A DNA stretch of 50,561 bases from Helicobacteraceae bacterium. Its GTDB lineage: Bacteria; Campylobacterota; Campylobacteria; Campylobacterales; SZUA-545. The position numbers and the translations under genes were made by a program. This document shows, piece after piece, positions 7,034 to 25,003 of this stretch (position 1 is its first letter; every line of letters starts with the position of its first letter). Where the stretch lies: assembly GCA_031275395.1 (NCBI GenBank), contig JAISOU010000084.1, positions 1 through 50,561 of the forward strand, written 5' to 3'. The notes under the pieces were generated by a model, which was not told where the DNA came from, searched no databases, and saw nothing but the letters and a program-made list of their open reading frames with translations.

Positions 7034-7471
7034 TCAGAGGTGTGCAATTTTAACGTCGCTTAATTTTTCCGCAAAATGCTCGGCTACTAATCTCCTATGA
7101 CAAAACTTTGGTTCAGGCTCGCTACATAAAAGAACGCTATCGACCATTTCGCTTTTTTTTATTAAGTTAAAAACTTTGCGTTCGTTCACAAGCGCCTTAA
7201 AACGCTCTTCATATACTTTCCAATCAATTTTTTTATTTTTATAGTCGGACAATATGCTTTCGGTTGGAACTAATTCGGGCTTATGGATATATTCCCAATC
7301 TAAAATTGTTTTCAGAAAATAGCGCAGATCGTCTTTTTTTGAAAATGCGGCTAATTGTGAAAGATTATTCAAACGAATATCAATTAACCGTTTCGCTCCG
7401 CTATTTTTCAATAACGTGAAAAACTTTTCCGCCCCTTTGCCCGCAAAACCAATTGTATATATATTATTCAT
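7034..7471 (-). CDS. DUF488 family protein (second copy)
   Basis: This 145-residue protein belongs to DUF488 (YeaO-like). It begins MNNIYTIGFAGK and contains the family signatures DIRLNN and SQLAAFSKKDDLRYFL. Near the C-terminus it has CSEPEPKFCHRRLVAEHF, with paired Cys and CHR residues. The start chosen is the ATG that overlaps the end of the upstream DUF488 gene by eight bases, which indicates translational coupling. DUF488 proteins are rhodanese-like in their ends, but their reaction is not established. The gene is the last of a three-gene cassette with another DUF488 gene and a broken DuOB gene. Confidence 0.85.
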   Translation of the reverse strand: MNNIYTIGFAGKGAEKFFTLLKNSGAKRLIDIRLNNLSQLAAFSKKDDLRYFLKTILDWEYIHKPELVPTESILSDYKNKKIDWKVYEERFKALVNERKVFNLIKKSEMVDSVLLCSEPEPKFCHRRLVAEHFAEKLSDVKIAHL

Positions 7472-8054
7472 CGTATGCCTCTCCTTTTTTGTATGCAATT
7501 TTTGCCGAATATACCTCATAAACCGAATCTAATGCATCTTCGAGAAATAAGCCGCCTATACCTTGCTCTTTAAGCATTTTTTGCTCTAGGTTTTTTTGGC
7601 TCAGTACTGAGCCGTCAAACAAAATATGATTAGCGTTAATTTGTAAAGCGCCGACTATATTACGAGCTACCAAAAGGAACCTATGGCATTCTAGCGGATT
7701 CTTTTCGGTGCACATCAGCGCTATATTTTTGCTATAGCTATCAATAAACTTTTCTATTTTTTCAATCCCTTTATTAAAGATAGCTAATTTGCTTGTTTTA
7801 TGAAAATCAACGCGATTATCCGTGTATGCTTCTGGCTCGTCTCGTCTTGCGCCAAACTCTGCGCCCATATGCAGATATTCAATATCATATTTACGCAAAA
7901 AAGCCGAAAGCGATTCTTTGTTGAATTGCGGAGCGTATCTACTATACGGTTGCGAGCGCACGTCCGCAATCATTGTAATTTTATTTTTCTTTAGAGCCAT
8001 AGCAAAAGCTTCTAACGTATGGACTGAACACCCTATTGTAAAAACTTCACCCAT
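7464..8054 (-). CDS. DUF488 family protein (first copy)
   Basis: The 196-residue protein starts MGEVFTIGCSVHTLEAF and carries the DUF488 signatures ADVRSQPYSRYAPQFN, HMGAEFGARR and CTEKNPLECHRFLL. It is related to, but diverged from, the DUF488 protein encoded directly downstream, so the two probably act as a pair or a heteromer. The start lies only four bases after the stop of the broken DuOB gene, so all three formed one operon. The biochemical role is unknown. The frequent pairing of DUF488 with DuOB proteins (my recollection of the families) suggests nucleic-acid-related stress or defence work. Confidence 0.88.
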   Translation of the reverse strand: MGEVFTIGCSVHTLEAFAMALKKNKITMIADVRSQPYSRYAPQFNKESLSAFLRKYDIEYLHMGAEFGARRDEPEAYTDNRVDFHKTSKLAIFNKGIEKIEKFIDSYSKNIALMCTEKNPLECHRFLLVARNIVGALQINANHILFDGSVLSQKNLEQKMLKEQGIGGLFLEDALDSVYEVYSAKIAYKKGEAYDE

Positions 8055-8058
8055 TGCG

Positions 8059-8655
8059 TTATCCTAGCATTGCGGCAACAAGCTTATAGCGATAATTATC
8101 CTTAAATAGTTCGCCGAGCGAAATTGTAAGAAATACATCGCTATAACCGCCAACGTCAAGTTGCCTATCATAATCCGTATATGCCAAGTCGTATTCAATA
8201 TTATTATACGCGAATCGCACTCGAGGTTTTGACTTGTCTTCGTATGGCGCTGAGTAATAAAATTCAGCCTTATCTACTTTTCACTAAATAAAGAGAGTTT
8301 GTTACCTCAAGACTTGGCGCGTTCCATATTTTGGCGCCTATTCCCCAAATACTTTCAGGTTGATCAAGGATGTCAATCGCTATTTCGTTTGTCTCTAACC
8401 TATCCCATTTTGGAGGTAGCAACACGTTTTCTGGTTGCCACGGTATTGGAGCAAGATCGCCTATTTCAACATCGTACTTGCAATATAGCTGAATATCAAG
8501 CGCTCTGGCTATATTTTTATCAATGGCGCTTCGGCGCTTCCATCTTTGTCTTGCACAAACCTATACCATTTGCCCGTCATCAGACTTTTGCCCGCTACGC
8601 AATACCCGCCATGCTTTGTTGATTTGGCAAGTACTATTATGTTGTCTCGTATCAT
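8059..8655 (-). pseudogene. DuOB (dual OB-fold) domain protein, two frameshifts
   Basis: Three frames on the minus strand line up into one protein of about 198 residues. The first starts at ATG 8655 and encodes IVLAKSTKHGGYCVAGKSL, then GKWYRFV. The second encodes NIARALDIQLYCKYDVEIGD through WDRLETNEI to SLYLVK. The third encodes VRFAYNNIEYDLAYTDYD to the end. Adding one A to an A5 run near 8513 and removing one A from an A4 run near 8273 restores a single frame. The order of motifs resembles the dual OB-containing domain family, known to neighbour DUF488 genes; the family call is from memory of its consensus. It lies immediately upstream of two intact DUF488 genes, so the cassette may have lost its partner. 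Confidence 0.65.
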
Positions 8656-15168: not shown

Positions 15169-15297
15169 ATGGCTATGCAAGCAAAAGTTTCGCAAAGCGT
15201 TATTAAAGCCGAAGGCTTCAATTTCTCTCTCGGTAGTCCGCTAGTTTTTTATCGTTTCTCAACAACGCAAACAAACATAATAGGAGGACAACTATGA
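15169..15297 (+). CDS. Small protein or leader peptide (42 aa), coupled to the TPR gene
   Basis: An ATG preceded by AAGGAG at seven bases opens a 42-codon frame beginning MAMQAKVSQSVIKAEGF. Its TGA overlaps the ATG of the TPR gene, an ATGA junction typical of translational coupling. A -10 box lies upstream. No family was recognised and there is no signal peptide. It could be a real small protein, a leader peptide, or the truncated 5' end of an older gene joined to the TPR gene. Confidence 0.5.
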   Translation: MAMQAKVSQSVIKAEGFNFSLGSPLVFYRFSTTQTNIIGGQL

Positions 15298-15932
15298 AAA
15301 CGTTGTTTAAGTTTGGAATGGTCGCAACCGCGTTAATCGTTTTTTGCTTAACGGTAGCTTTTACCTTTGGCGCAAGCGCCGCCGAAGAAGCGTATAATCG
15401 CGGCGTAACGGCGCAAGATCGTGGCGATCTGCAAGAGGCGATCAAACAATATACGGAAGCGATCAAACTCGATCCAAAACTTGCGCCGGCTTACAACAAT
15501 CGCGGAAACGCTTACGACGAGTTAGGCGACACAAGTAAAGCGATCGCCGATTACGACCAAGCGACTAAACTTGATCCGAGCAACGCAAAGGCTTACTACA
15601 ATCGCGGTCTTGCTTACAGTAATTTAGGGGATAAAAACAAAGCGATCGCCGATTACAACCAAGCGATTAAACTTGATCCGAACCTTGCGCTGGCTTACAG
15701 CAACCGCGGAAACGCTTACGACGAGTTAGGCGACACAAGTAAAGCGATCGCCGATTACGACCAAGCGATCAAGATCGATCCGAACCTTGCGCTGGCTTAC
15801 AGCAACCGCGGACTTGCTTACTTTAATTTAGGCGATTATAAAAGCGCGACAAAAGACGCTCGTAAAGCGTGCGAACTCGGCGATTGCGAAGGATTGCAGT
15901 ATTTAGAGCAAAAAAATCTATTGTCCGATTAA
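15294..15932 (+). CDS. Exported tetratricopeptide-repeat protein
   Basis: The 212-residue protein has a signal peptide (MKTLFKFGMVATALIVF to ASAAEEA) and then about five TPR units of 34 residues covering residues 30-195. Each has the pattern AYNNRGNAYDELGD...AIADYDQAIKLDP. Bases 15501-15564 and 15705-15768 are identical, exactly two repeat units (204 bases) apart, so the array grew recently by duplication. TPR arrays bind protein partners, here in the periplasm; the partner is unknown. The start has TAGGAGG upstream and overlaps the preceding 42-codon frame. Confidence 0.9.
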   Translation: MKTLFKFGMVATALIVFCLTVAFTFGASAAEEAYNRGVTAQDRGDLQEAIKQYTEAIKLDPKLAPAYNNRGNAYDELGDTSKAIADYDQATKLDPSNAKAYYNRGLAYSNLGDKNKAIADYNQAIKLDPNLALAYSNRGNAYDELGDTSKAIADYDQAIKIDPNLALAYSNRGLAYFNLGDYKSATKDARKACELGDCEGLQYLEQKNLLSD

Positions 15933-21043: not shown

Positions 21044-21268
21044 AATAGTTTTGCGCGTCTTTCATAGTTTGATAATCTTTATAAATCGGATTTTATACGA
21101 AAAGCCAAAAAGCCGCCGCAATCGTTTGTTTTTGTTCTTGCGCGCTATGCTGACTTGACTAAGGTTAATCAAATCTATTAAGGCGGCGCGGGCGGGGCGT
21201 TTGAGGGTTGATCTGCTAAACTTACGGATTACCAAAAACCAATTCGGCGAAACTAAGGACTTTTGTTT

Positions 21269-24200
21269 ATGCTAGTAAAAGCAATCTTATCGTGTTTTGT
21301 TTTTCTTACTTCTATGCGCGCGGCTATCGTTTGGTTATTTGTCGTCGCTTTTGCCTGCGCGGCCGCGACGTTTATCGAAAACGACTATGGAAGCCAAGCG
21401 GCTAGAGCGGCGGTCTATAACAACCGAATATTCGAGATCCTTTTGTTTTTGTTCTGCGTATCGCTGGTGGGTTCTATGGTCAGGTTTGGCATGTTCCATA
21501 AAGAAAAAACGGCGGTATTCGTCTTTCACGCCGCGATCCTAGCGATACTAATCGGCGCGTTTATCACCCGCTATTTTGGCTACGAAGGTTATATGCACCT
21601 GCGCGAAGGGCAGACGAGCGCAGAGATTCTTAGCGCCGATCCATATCTGGCGGTTTCTAGTAGCGGATTAAACGCAAGCTGGCGTTTGCCGCTTTCTCCG
21701 ATCGCCTCCTCCGATCGCTCCTTTAGCGCCAATCTTGGCGGCGGCGCTCCCGTAACGATCGAAACCAAATCCTACTATCCGCGAGCGAAAGAGGCCGTCG
21801 TAGAGGTCGAAAACGACGGCGCGGCGTATATCGCGTTCGCGCTTTTTTACGGAGAAAAACCGATTGGCGCGGAGCTCTTCGAGGGGCAGTATTTTGAAAA
21901 TAACGGCGTTATCTTTTATTTTGGCGATTTTGAGGATATAAACTTCACGCAACCTACGATCGCGATCGGAATGCAGGATAATCAGCTTGTGATCCGATCT
22001 TACGTCGATATGACGCGATTTGATCGGCAAACGGGCGAACAAATCTCGCTTCGCGCCCACTCCGCGCACCCGTTCGATCTAAACGTGTCGTACGCCACGA
22101 ACGACGGCATAGGCATAGCTTTACTTAAACATTTCTTATCTGCGGACAAAAAGGTCGTCGAAGCCGCGCCAAACGAAGATGGTTTGGCGGCCATAATCGT
22201 CGACGTTTCGCACAAAGACGAGCATAAAGAGGTTGCGCTTTTAGGCGGCGCGAGAATGAGCGGCGAGCGCGCCGAAGTGGAGCTTTCGGGGCGAAAGTTC
22301 GTTCTATCTTTTGGATCGGAAACGATCGAGCTACCGTTTTCGCTTAAACTCGACCGCTTTATCGTCGGACGGTATCCCGGCTCTACCGTTCCCTCGTCGT
22401 ATGAAAGCCAAGTAACGCTTATCGACGAGGAGCGCGGCTTAAACGAGCCAAGACGCATATATATGAACAACATTCTGACGCATAGGCAGTTTCGCTTTTA
22501 TCAAGCGTCTTACGACACGTGGGACGAGCGCGGCACGCTTTTATCGGTTTCAAACGATCCCGGCGTGTGGCTAACCTATATCGGATACGCGCTTTTGACG
22601 TTCGGTTTTTTTATCGCGTTTTTTAGCCCGAAAAGCCGCTTTAGGACGCTCGCGGAGCAGATCGAAAAAAGCAGGCGTATGAAGTCGTTCGCCCCCGCTC
22701 TTGTCGCGCTTATTTTGCTTGGCGGCGCTTTGGAATTAAAAGCGGACGAAACCGATACCGTATCGAACGCTAACGAGGCGATCGTCGATATTCGCTCCGA
22801 CGAGGTTAATCAATCCGTTCGCGCCGTAGATACCAACCGCACAGTCCAATCCGTTAGATCGGTCGATATAAATCAATCCGTTTCGATCGATTCAAACCAA
22901 ACCGTCCGATCGGCGGATACAAATCGCACAGTCCAATCCGTTAGATCGACGGACGCTAACCAAACCGCCCGATCTACGGATACAAACCGCACAGTCCGAT
23001 CCGTTAGATCGGTCGATACAAATAGAACGATTCGCGTTGTGGATAGTAACCGATCGATCCCCGTAGAGGTTAATCAATCCGTTCGCGCCGTAGATACCAA
23101 CCGCACAGTCCGATCCGTTAGATCGACGGACGCTAACCAAACCGCCCGATCTACGGATACAAACCGCACATTCCGTCCCGCTCAAGAAACCAATCGAAGC
23201 GCTCCCGCAGTCGTTCGCCCCGCTAAACAAGAGGCAGGCCAGACCACTTTAGATAAGAAAGAAACAAACGCGACTTCGGACGAAACCAATCGCTCCGCCC
23301 CCGCAAGCGTTCGCGGCGACGAAACCAACGTTACGACGACGCGGGTTAAAGGCATTGTCGATCTGGATCACGCAAAGCGCTTTGGCTCGCTTTTGGTTCA
23401 GGACGCAAACGGACGAATCAAGCCAATCGATACGCTCGCGCGCGAAACCCTAAGCAAGATTTCAAGGCAGAACGAGTTTAGCGCCCTCAGCGCAACGCAG
23501 GTTTTTTTAGGAATGTTGAGCGTGCCGGAAGGCTGGTTAAGCGTCAAAATGATACGGGTAAATCACCCTGAAATAGGTCCGAAACTTAATTTAGAATACG
23601 GCGTTAAATACGTTTCTTTTTTCGATATTGCCGCGCTCGATAGCGACGGCGCGTTGGTTTATAGGCTCGCCGACGAAACGGCGCTGGCGAAGATCGTTCC
23701 CGATTCGCAAAAGACGCAGCTGGATAAGGAGTTGCTAAAGCTCCACGAACGATACATTGTGGCGTATATGGTTTATGTAAAGGATCTTTTGCGGATTTTT
23801 CCCGTTAGGCACGATCCCTCCTTTACGTGGAACTCCCCCATACAGATGAGAAATCTAGCCAAACTTTCGCCTAGCGAAGCGGAAGAAACAAACCGGACCC
23901 TGAGCGCCTATTTGGACGAACTTAGAAAGGCGCAGATCAGCGACGAATGGAATAACGCCGATCTTGCGCTAGACAAGTTGCGCGCCTATCAAGAAACCTA
24001 CGGCGTAGCCGTTATGCCAAGCGAAACGCGAGTAAAAGCGGAGCTTCTGCTAAACGCCATTAAACCCTTTTCGGTTTTGCTTTACGCCTACTTTTTGCTA
24101 GGGACGTTTCTGCTTATTTGGGCGTTCGTTCGATCGCTTGCGCCAAATCTGTTGAAAAAAAGAGGGTTCTATATCTCGTTGGCGTTGGTCGGCGCGACGG

Positions 24201-25003
24201 CGCTTTCGTTTGCCTTTCACACGATTGCGCTCGCTTTGCGCTGGTATGTTTCCGGACACGCGCCTTGGTCAAACGGTTACGAATCGATTATCTATGTTGC
24301 GTGGAGCGCGTTATTCGCGGGGCTTTTTTTCGCTAGGCGATCGATCTTTGCGCTTCCCGCCGCTACCCTTATCGGCGCGTTTGCGCTCATAACGGCGTTG
24401 ATCGCCGAGTATGATCCGCAGATCACGACGCTTGCGCCCGTGCTAAAATCGCATTGGCTAACGATCCACGTTAGCGTGATTTCGGCTAGTTACGGCTTTT
24501 TGGGAATGTCTATGCTTTTGGGGCTAACTTCGCTGGCGCTTTTTGCGTTTCGCGCGCCTAGAAAAGTAAAGATCGACGAGGCGATCGCGGAGTTGCGGCG
24601 CATTAACGAGATGGCTATGATGGTAGGGCTTGCGCTTCTTACGATTGGCAATATTTTCGGCGCGATTTGGGCAAACGAATCGTGGGGTCGGTATTGGAGT
24701 TGGGATCCCAAAGAAACATGGACGCTAATTAGCATATTGATCTACGCCGCGATTTTGCACTTTAGATTTGTGCCTACGCTCAAAAGCGCCTTTGTTTTTT
24801 CGTTTTCGAGCGCCTTTGCGTTCGCGTCGATCTTAATGACCTATTTCGGCGTTAATTTCTACCTATCGGGAATGCATTCGTATGCAAGCGGCGACGCTCC
24901 GCCCGTTTCGATTTGGTTTTACGTCGTAATAACCTTTTTCTTTAGTTTGTCGATCTTAGCGTGGAACAAAAGCGACGGACGCTACCCGCTCGATTGCAAA
25001 TAA
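21269..25003 (+). CDS. ccsBA: Fused cytochrome c assembly protein CcsBA (ResB-CcsA) with a sequon-array linker
   Basis: CcsBA carries haem across the membrane and attaches it to apocytochrome c. The 1244 residues start at an ATG eight bases after AAGGAC. The ResB part has three N-terminal helices, a periplasmic domain, and a helix at about 434-455. A second export-like hydrophobic stretch follows at 473-490. Residues 511-690 are a low-complexity repeat with 17 D/E-X-N-X-S/T sequons. A further periplasmic domain (about 695-930) and the multi-helix CcsA part follow, with the haem-handling WWD motif WGRYWSWDPKETW at 1139. The fusion is typical of Campylobacterota, but the linker is an unusual addition. 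The gene is monocistronic in appearance, with a hairpin behind it. Confidence 0.95.
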   Translation: MLVKAILSCFVFLTSMRAAIVWLFVVAFACAAATFIENDYGSQAARAAVYNNRIFEILLFLFCVSLVGSMVRFGMFHKEKTAVFVFHAAILAILIGAFITRYFGYEGYMHLREGQTSAEILSADPYLAVSSSGLNASWRLPLSPIASSDRSFSANLGGGAPVTIETKSYYPRAKEAVVEVENDGAAYIAFALFYGEKPIGAELFEGQYFENNGVIFYFGDFEDINFTQPTIAIGMQDNQLVIRSYVDMTRFDRQTGEQISLRAHSAHPFDLNVSYATNDGIGIALLKHFLSADKKVVEAAPNEDGLAAIIVDVSHKDEHKEVALLGGARMSGERAEVELSGRKFVLSFGSETIELPFSLKLDRFIVGRYPGSTVPSSYESQVTLIDEERGLNEPRRIYMNNILTHRQFRFYQASYDTWDERGTLLSVSNDPGVWLTYIGYALLTFGFFIAFFSPKSRFRTLAEQIEKSRRMKSFAPALVALILLGGALELKADETDTVSNANEAIVDIRSDEVNQSVRAVDTNRTVQSVRSVDINQSVSIDSNQTVRSADTNRTVQSVRSTDANQTARSTDTNRTVRSVRSVDTNRTIRVVDSNRSIPVEVNQSVRAVDTNRTVRSVRSTDANQTARSTDTNRTFRPAQETNRSAPAVVRPAKQEAGQTTLDKKETNATSDETNRSAPASVRGDETNVTTTRVKGIVDLDHAKRFGSLLVQDANGRIKPIDTLARETLSKISRQNEFSALSATQVFLGMLSVPEGWLSVKMIRVNHPEIGPKLNLEYGVKYVSFFDIAALDSDGALVYRLADETALAKIVPDSQKTQLDKELLKLHERYIVAYMVYVKDLLRIFPVRHDPSFTWNSPIQMRNLAKLSPSEAEETNRTLSAYLDELRKAQISDEWNNADLALDKLRAYQETYGVAVMPSETRVKAELLLNAIKPFSVLLYAYFLLGTFLLIWAFVRSLAPNLLKKRGFYISLALVGATALSFAFHTIALALRWYVSGHAPWSNGYESIIYVAWSALFAGLFFARRSIFALPAATLIGAFALITALIAEYDPQITTLAPVLKSHWLTIHVSVISASYGFLGMSMLLGLTSLALFAFRAPRKVKIDEAIAELRRINEMAMMVGLALLTIGNIFGAIWANESWGRYWSWDPKETWTLISILIYAAILHFRFVPTLKSAFVFSFSSAFAFASILMTYFGVNFYLSGMHSYASGDAPPVSIWFYVVITFFFSLSILAWNKSDGRYPLDCK
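22796..23337 (+). repeat. In-frame degenerate repeat array encoding N-glycosylation sequons
   Basis: The array encodes units such as VDTNRTVRSVRS and TDANQTARS. Sequon asparagines fall at residues 514, 523, 535, 543, 552, 564, 573, 585, 594, 602, 611, 623, 632, 642, 667, 674 and 687 of CcsBA, mostly 8-12 apart. Long identical blocks show recent duplication: 22802-22847 equals 23066-23111 (264 bases apart) and 22936-22993 equals 23113-23170 (177 bases apart). Both distances are multiples of three, so the frame is kept. Confidence 0.92.

Follow-up and report, generated by a model that had tools for sequence, protein, structure and literature searches.

The question raised by this locus is why the junction of a cytochrome c synthase, the fused ResB/CcsB-CcsA protein CcsBA, should contain a dense run of acidic N-glycosylation sequons (D/E-x-N-x-S/T), and whether such a run has been maintained as a set of acceptor sites or merely copied as a repeat. 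The gene lies within the window, i.e., the whole stretch of 50,561 nucleotides analysed here. The reason why bacteria glycosylate many periplasmic proteins is poorly understood, and a single conserved sequon that has apparently been multiplied seventeen-fold, with its neighbours drifting, offers a natural example in which selection for the number of glycans can be tested.

A sequon array within fused CcsBA

Both the ResB and Cytochrom_C_asm domains of Pfam were found in the single chain encoded by the gene, and the protein matches the cryo-EM structure of H. hepaticus CcsBA (7s9y) with an E-value of 3.6e-178. By this sequence match, which settles the family, the ORF is a member of the fused CcsBA (System II) synthases. 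The WWD motif (WGRYWSWDPKETW) was found, and in the CcsA half the aligned W and H positions are invariant or nearly so across 28 sequences. The search against Rfam gave no match. The linker between the two CcsBA halves has no counterpart in the 7s9y structure, contains no W, Y, or C but many Arg residues, and carries a net charge of +2. The coordinates of the features are collected in Table 1; residue numbers are counted from the TTG start, those of the preliminary description having been counted from the ATG and being therefore 2 lower.

Table 1. Features of ccsBA and its linker (window positions; residue numbers from the TTG start).
Feature	Position	Strand	Remarks
ccsBA, fused ResB/CcsB-CcsA cytochrome c synthase	21263..25003	+	1246 aa; TTG start, next ATG at 21269
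Asn 227 codon, sequon DINFT, ResB periplasmic domain	21941..21943	+	common to the close relative G005
Asn 274 codon, sequon DLNVS, ResB periplasmic domain	22082..22084	+	common to the close relative G005
Last ResB transmembrane helix, residues 434-455	22562..22627	+	from sequence and AlphaFold model
Hydrophobic segment, residues 474-494 (KSFAPALVALILLGGALELKA)	22682..22744	+	predicted to return the chain to the periplasm; basic residues precede it, none in the next 12 residues
Whole linker, residues 495-694	22745..23344	+	pLDDT ~30 over 519-693
Degenerate tandem repeat	22797..23180	+	63-nt (21-aa) units, two sequons each (9 + 12 residues)
Array of 17 D/E-x-N-x-S/T sequons, residues 514-691	22802..23335	+	N516 to N689
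EAGQT, residues 657-661	23231..23245	+	Gly (GGC) at the would-be Asn
Junction GDETNVTTTRVKGIVD closing the array, with N689	23315..23362	+	corresponds to the lone sequon in four congeners (ADETNSTRIMGIVD and similar)
Asn 877 codon, sequon ETNRT, CcsA periplasmic domain PD2	23891..23893	+	

When counted again, the linker sequons numbered 17, as had been described, with Asn at positions 516, 525, 537, 545, 554, 566, 575, 587, 596, 604, 613, 625, 634, 644, 669, 676, and 689 (spacings of 9, 12, 8, 9, 12, 9, 12, 9, 8, 9, 12, 9, 10, 25, 7, and 13 residues). Every Asn within residues 514-693 falls in an acidic sequon (17/17), and all 17 conform to D/E-x-N-x-S/T, both x positions being free of Pro. 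The 18th sequon of the earlier inventory, N875 in its numbering, corresponds to N877; that inventory was incomplete, having missed two sites of the ResB periplasmic domain, N227 and N274, and the total for CcsBA is thus 20, with 17 of these in the 180-aa linker. EAGQT at residues 657-661 may be a decayed or lost sequon. Chance low complexity as the source of the array was ruled out by shuffling residues 514-693 (20,000 shuffles), which yielded a mean of 0.53 sequons and a maximum of 5 against the 17 present. In 290 proteins from sampled stretches of the genome and the window (~0.37-0.43 Mb, the background for the genome counts), 96 sequons were found, 20 of them being in CcsBA, and the runner-up 180-aa stretch, in a GLUG-repeat protein, contains 7.

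Tandem duplication and retention of the sequons

The array is at the same time a degenerate tandem repeat, a feature absent from the preliminary description; its 21-aa unit has a consensus of about xD-x-NQ-[S/T]-xRxxDTNRTVRSVRSx. Overlying the 63-nt repeat are in-frame duplications at offsets of 177, 264, and 114 nt, in which 58, 46, and 27 nt, respectively, are identical without a break. In the final quarter of the array (N644-N689), the unit takes a looser form with ETNRSAPA, and two copies of this form show 82% identity over 33 nt. The regular spacing of the sequons, previously read as a sign of selection, is real but arises from in-frame tandem duplication of the 21-aa unit, and regularity alone is therefore not evidence of selection.

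In pairwise comparison of the five full units, the non-sequon codons differ by 63 non-synonymous versus 21 synonymous changes; the sequon codons differ by 12 of each kind, the non-synonymous ones being only D/E or S/T swaps. Across the 17 sites, the -2 column uses four codons, the N column two, and the +2 column seven, encoding only D/E, N, and S/T, with D/E at -2 in all 17, whereas the columns neighbouring the sequon positions hold four to seven amino acids. Because the codons vary between units and yet those of the sequons stay within D/E, N, and S/T, the sites look maintained despite free codon variation. A simulation of point changes put the retention of the sequons at about 4e-5 for the minimum number of changes, a crude estimate given that the duplicated units are non-independent and were handled as a minimal set of changes.

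Comparison with relatives suggests where the array came from. Four congeners (L004-L007) join the two domains by a very short linker that has only one sequon, placed immediately behind the hydrophobic segment, at the junctions ADEETNATRIMGIVD, ADEANATRIMGIVD, ADETNSTRIMGIVD, and AADTNATRIMGIVD; the acidic -2 residue is kept at the same place in the linker, in one sequon instead of an array. N689, at the corresponding junction in the window, is likely to be the ancestral site. G004, a more distant congener, has no sequon at the junction, and the contig of the nearest relative, G005 (97% identical; Helicobacteraceae MAG, Kf353_bin5), ends ~30 residues before the array. A similarity search, which arrays of other unit sequences would escape, found no similar array in 60 relatives nor in 249 genomes drawn from the order. 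Within this set of genomes, only the species of the window has the array, G005 being cut off at that point. As the four congeners have one sequon and no array, the simplest history would be an in-frame tandem expansion of a conserved single sequon, running from one to many.

The main rival to a maintained acceptor array is neutral repeat expansion, in which slippage or recombination would have copied a unit with an ancestral sequon, the extra sites being tolerated, perhaps partly glycosylated, and functionless. The clear tandem structure, in which stretches of 58 and 46 nt recur exactly and in frame, the presence of the array in only one sampled species, and the drift expected in length-variable linkers all speak for such an origin. 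On the other hand, the units have diverged at most codons and no sequon inside them has been broken, the non-synonymous changes in sequon codons all being conservative of the motif (D/E or S/T). The codon evidence weighs against neutral expansion and does not remove it, and it is regarded here as unlikely, albeit the strongest of the competing explanations.

The weak matches of the array search that were inspected were of other kinds. One was a 297-aa ORF with an HTH and a single TM (L076 in G057, another family of the order; RodZ-like by eye), in whose post-TM linker (DENISSESNETTATKEDNETLESNLT) a span of 22 residues contains four acidic sequons, a small and independent juxtamembrane sequon cluster; the other was a protein with a polyserine tract of >200 residues (L089, G142:C100). 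In G011, the CcsA half (L008, G011:C55) and the ResB half (G011:C13:14178-15566) are separate ORFs on different contigs, most of the family being fused. Elsewhere in the window, imperfect 84-87-nt tandem repeats (~7 copies, apparently minus-strand coding) occupy positions 413-1027, and 102-nt tandem repeats occur at 15457-15836 in an ORF at 15294-15932 (+) with a TPR-like reading.

Predicted topology and disorder of the linker

In fused CcsBA, the periplasmic domains PD1 and PD2 are separated by two TMs (PMC10663686). In the protein described here, segments 434-455 and 474-494 correspond to these two TMs, and the stretch that separates them contains basic residues. Homology to fused CcsBA, together with the basic residues that precede segment 474-494 and their lack just after it, would place the linker in the periplasm, at the start of PD2. 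An AlphaFold2 model of residues 430-1246, built with 28 sequences, gave a pLDDT of ~30 for the linker, as for a disordered segment, and mostly ~90 for the CcsA fold. The hydrophobic segment was itself modelled at low confidence, so that the side on which the linker lies is argued from homology. The earlier proposal of an export-like segment followed by a periplasmic array is accordingly favoured by the correspondence with PD2 and by the pattern of basic residues, the AlphaFold model being weak at the segment.

Segment 474-494 might instead be a signal peptide that is removed by cleavage (..LKA/DETD..), which would leave CcsB and CcsA as separate chains and the array as a glycosylated N-terminal tail of CcsA. 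The corresponding hydrophobic stretches of the congeners are signal-like and end in small residues (NANA/DEE, INA/AD), and the separate CcsA half of G011 has its own hydrophobic start (L008). Against cleavage, the two TMs that separate PD1 from PD2 are elements of the structure, and fused CcsBA was purified as one active chain (PMC10663686). Cleavage is considered decidedly unlikely, and as a variant of the glycosylated-linker explanation it is compatible with it.

N-glycosylation machinery and acidic sequons in the genome

A pglB gene, the absence of which would have told against the proposal of an acceptor array, was found on another contig. Its 758-aa product matches C. lari PglB (3rce) across its length (E-value 4.7e-127) and, in the alignment to that protein, keeps the catalytic residues: WWDYG is present, E347 is equivalent to E319, and R359 is equivalent to R331. 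It is divergent, scoring 506 bits versus the NCBIfam equivalog cut-off of 1300 bits. The genome further encodes a PglK-like flippase, for which PglK is the top NCBIfam model (4.4e-155), and one PglC-type phosphoglycosyltransferase, and the neighbours of pglB are genes for an AsnB-like amidotransferase and a GT4 glycosyltransferase (G000:C23, L052:12425-15297, -), which possibly build or modify the N-glycan. A complete pgl operon was not found in the genome, the pgl genes being scattered; H. pullorum also has separate pgl loci (PMC6025236). Relatives of PglB were found in 33 of the 40 genomes searched. A loss of pglB in G005 was considered and is unsupported, as a contig ends beside the locus.

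Since the R331 equivalent alone does not fix the -2 rule (PMC4894442), the sampled proteome was tested for acidic sequons, with proteins having a hydrophobic segment (CcsBA excluded) classed as membrane/exported and those without one as cytosolic. The membrane/exported proteins have 46 acidic sequons versus 20.4 +/- 4.0 by shuffling, and the cytosolic proteins 41 versus 42.8. The two classes differ in the acid fraction of their NxS/T sites (Fisher p 0.009, GLUG proteins included). Two GLUG-repeat proteins were set aside in one count, the GLUG motif itself tending to contain GNVSG, and the remaining membrane/exported proteins gave 33 versus 19.7 +/- 4.4, with 5 of 500 shuffles as high. This excess in exported proteins fits an active acidic-sequon system acting on them.

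One GLUG-repeat surface-type protein (G000:C14, L048:5881-7392, +) contains nine acidic sequons, seven of them within 180 aa, and its sequons may be a by-product of the GLUG motif. Two adjacent RCC1-repeat-like lipoprotein-type genes (G000:C1, L035:4500-7061 and 7095-8312, -) contain three and four acidic sequons, respectively.

The proteome counts bear also on the suggestion that the array is kept unglycosylated for its peptide properties, as a charged, flexible, and hydrophilic linker. Its acidic and basic residues are balanced and Trp, Tyr, and cysteine are lacking, which speaks for the suggestion. It explains neither why Asn is confined to the exact sequon and +2 is strictly S/T, nor why acidic sequons are in excess among the other membrane/exported proteins, and it is considered very improbable. 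Hardly credible is an assembly artefact, for although the segment is repeat-rich, the genome a 96-contig draft, and the G005 contig broken close to the same point, the 543 nt lie within a 50-kb contig and keep the frame without a stop, no exact repeat exceeds 58 nt, which is shorter than a normal read, and misassembly of one unit cannot yield diverged units.

A glycosylated spacer as the proposed explanation

The claim that the linker is an acceptor array for PglB is the best reading in view of the sequons, the pglB gene, the topology by homology, and the constrained codons, with glycosylation itself being predicted only. As a whole, the linker is probably an amplified, PglB-glycosylated periplasmic spacer in CcsBA, its occupancy and function being deduced. 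The short periplasmic linker from the last TM to PD2 would have had one PglB acceptor sequon, as in most of the genus, and would have grown via in-frame tandem duplication into a disordered segment of ~180 residues with 17 sequons. On emerging at the periplasmic side, it could receive N-glycans at many sites from the PglB whose gene lies on another contig, and the linker sequons are likely to be glycosylated. The product might be a stiff and hydrophilic spacer coated with sugars, by which the exposed junction of the fused synthase would stay extended and soluble and be shielded from proteases; this function as spacer or shield, the least certain step when taken alone, is proposed tentatively. 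Bolder, and quite unlikely, is the idea of a bottlebrush-like N-glycan domain that sets the spacing or dynamics of the PDs and tunes haem attachment, evolved in one genus by amplifying a conserved sequon; bacterial N-glycans would then have been selected for a structural role. C. jejuni CcsBA (Cj1013c) is listed as a glycoprotein; a report showing it to be one was sought in the open literature and not found. For glycoengineering, the array is a ready-made multi-site acceptor tag, and the differing residues around Asn in its units could serve in tests of PglB preference.

Comparison with known systems

The preliminary description knew of no protein with so dense a bacterial sequon array, a claim that does not stand in view of C. 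jejuni Cj1433c, the source of the GlycoTag, in which nine perfect consecutive KIDLNNT repeats at the N-terminus acquire as many as nine N-glycans on export to the periplasm of E. coli carrying the pgl genes (PMC4879521). Both are natural tandem D/E-x-N-x-S/T arrays in Campylobacterales proteins, with head-to-tail units each containing a sequon. Cj1433c, however, is an unrelated protein with a perfect 7-residue repeat and one sequon per unit, whereas the CcsBA units are degenerate, of 21 aa with two sequons each, and total 17 in the periplasmic linker of a membrane enzyme.

Haem proteins offer a precedent too: N. gonorrhoeae CcoP and cytochrome c5 have O-glycosylated, AlaSerPro-rich low-complexity linkers between haem domains (PMC2924362). 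The likeness lies in the low-complexity interdomain linkers of haem proteins, those of Neisseria carrying glycans of a general system. They differ in being O-linked on Ser at few sites by another transferase, and in belonging to electron carriers, CcsBA being a synthase.

The general PglB system of Campylobacter and Helicobacter, which N-glycosylates membrane and periplasmic proteins mostly at one to three occupied sites per target (PMC9816155, PMC6025236), has the sequon, compartment, and enzyme family in common with the array. H. hepaticus CcsBA (7s9y, 7s9z) is the same fused synthase with the same domain order and junction position, but its junction is short (~50 residues between matched stretches, TM included) and has no array. 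A bacterial sequon array as such is thus already known in kind; new here are the number of sequons, the protein that carries them, and the fact that one conserved site was apparently amplified within a single genus.
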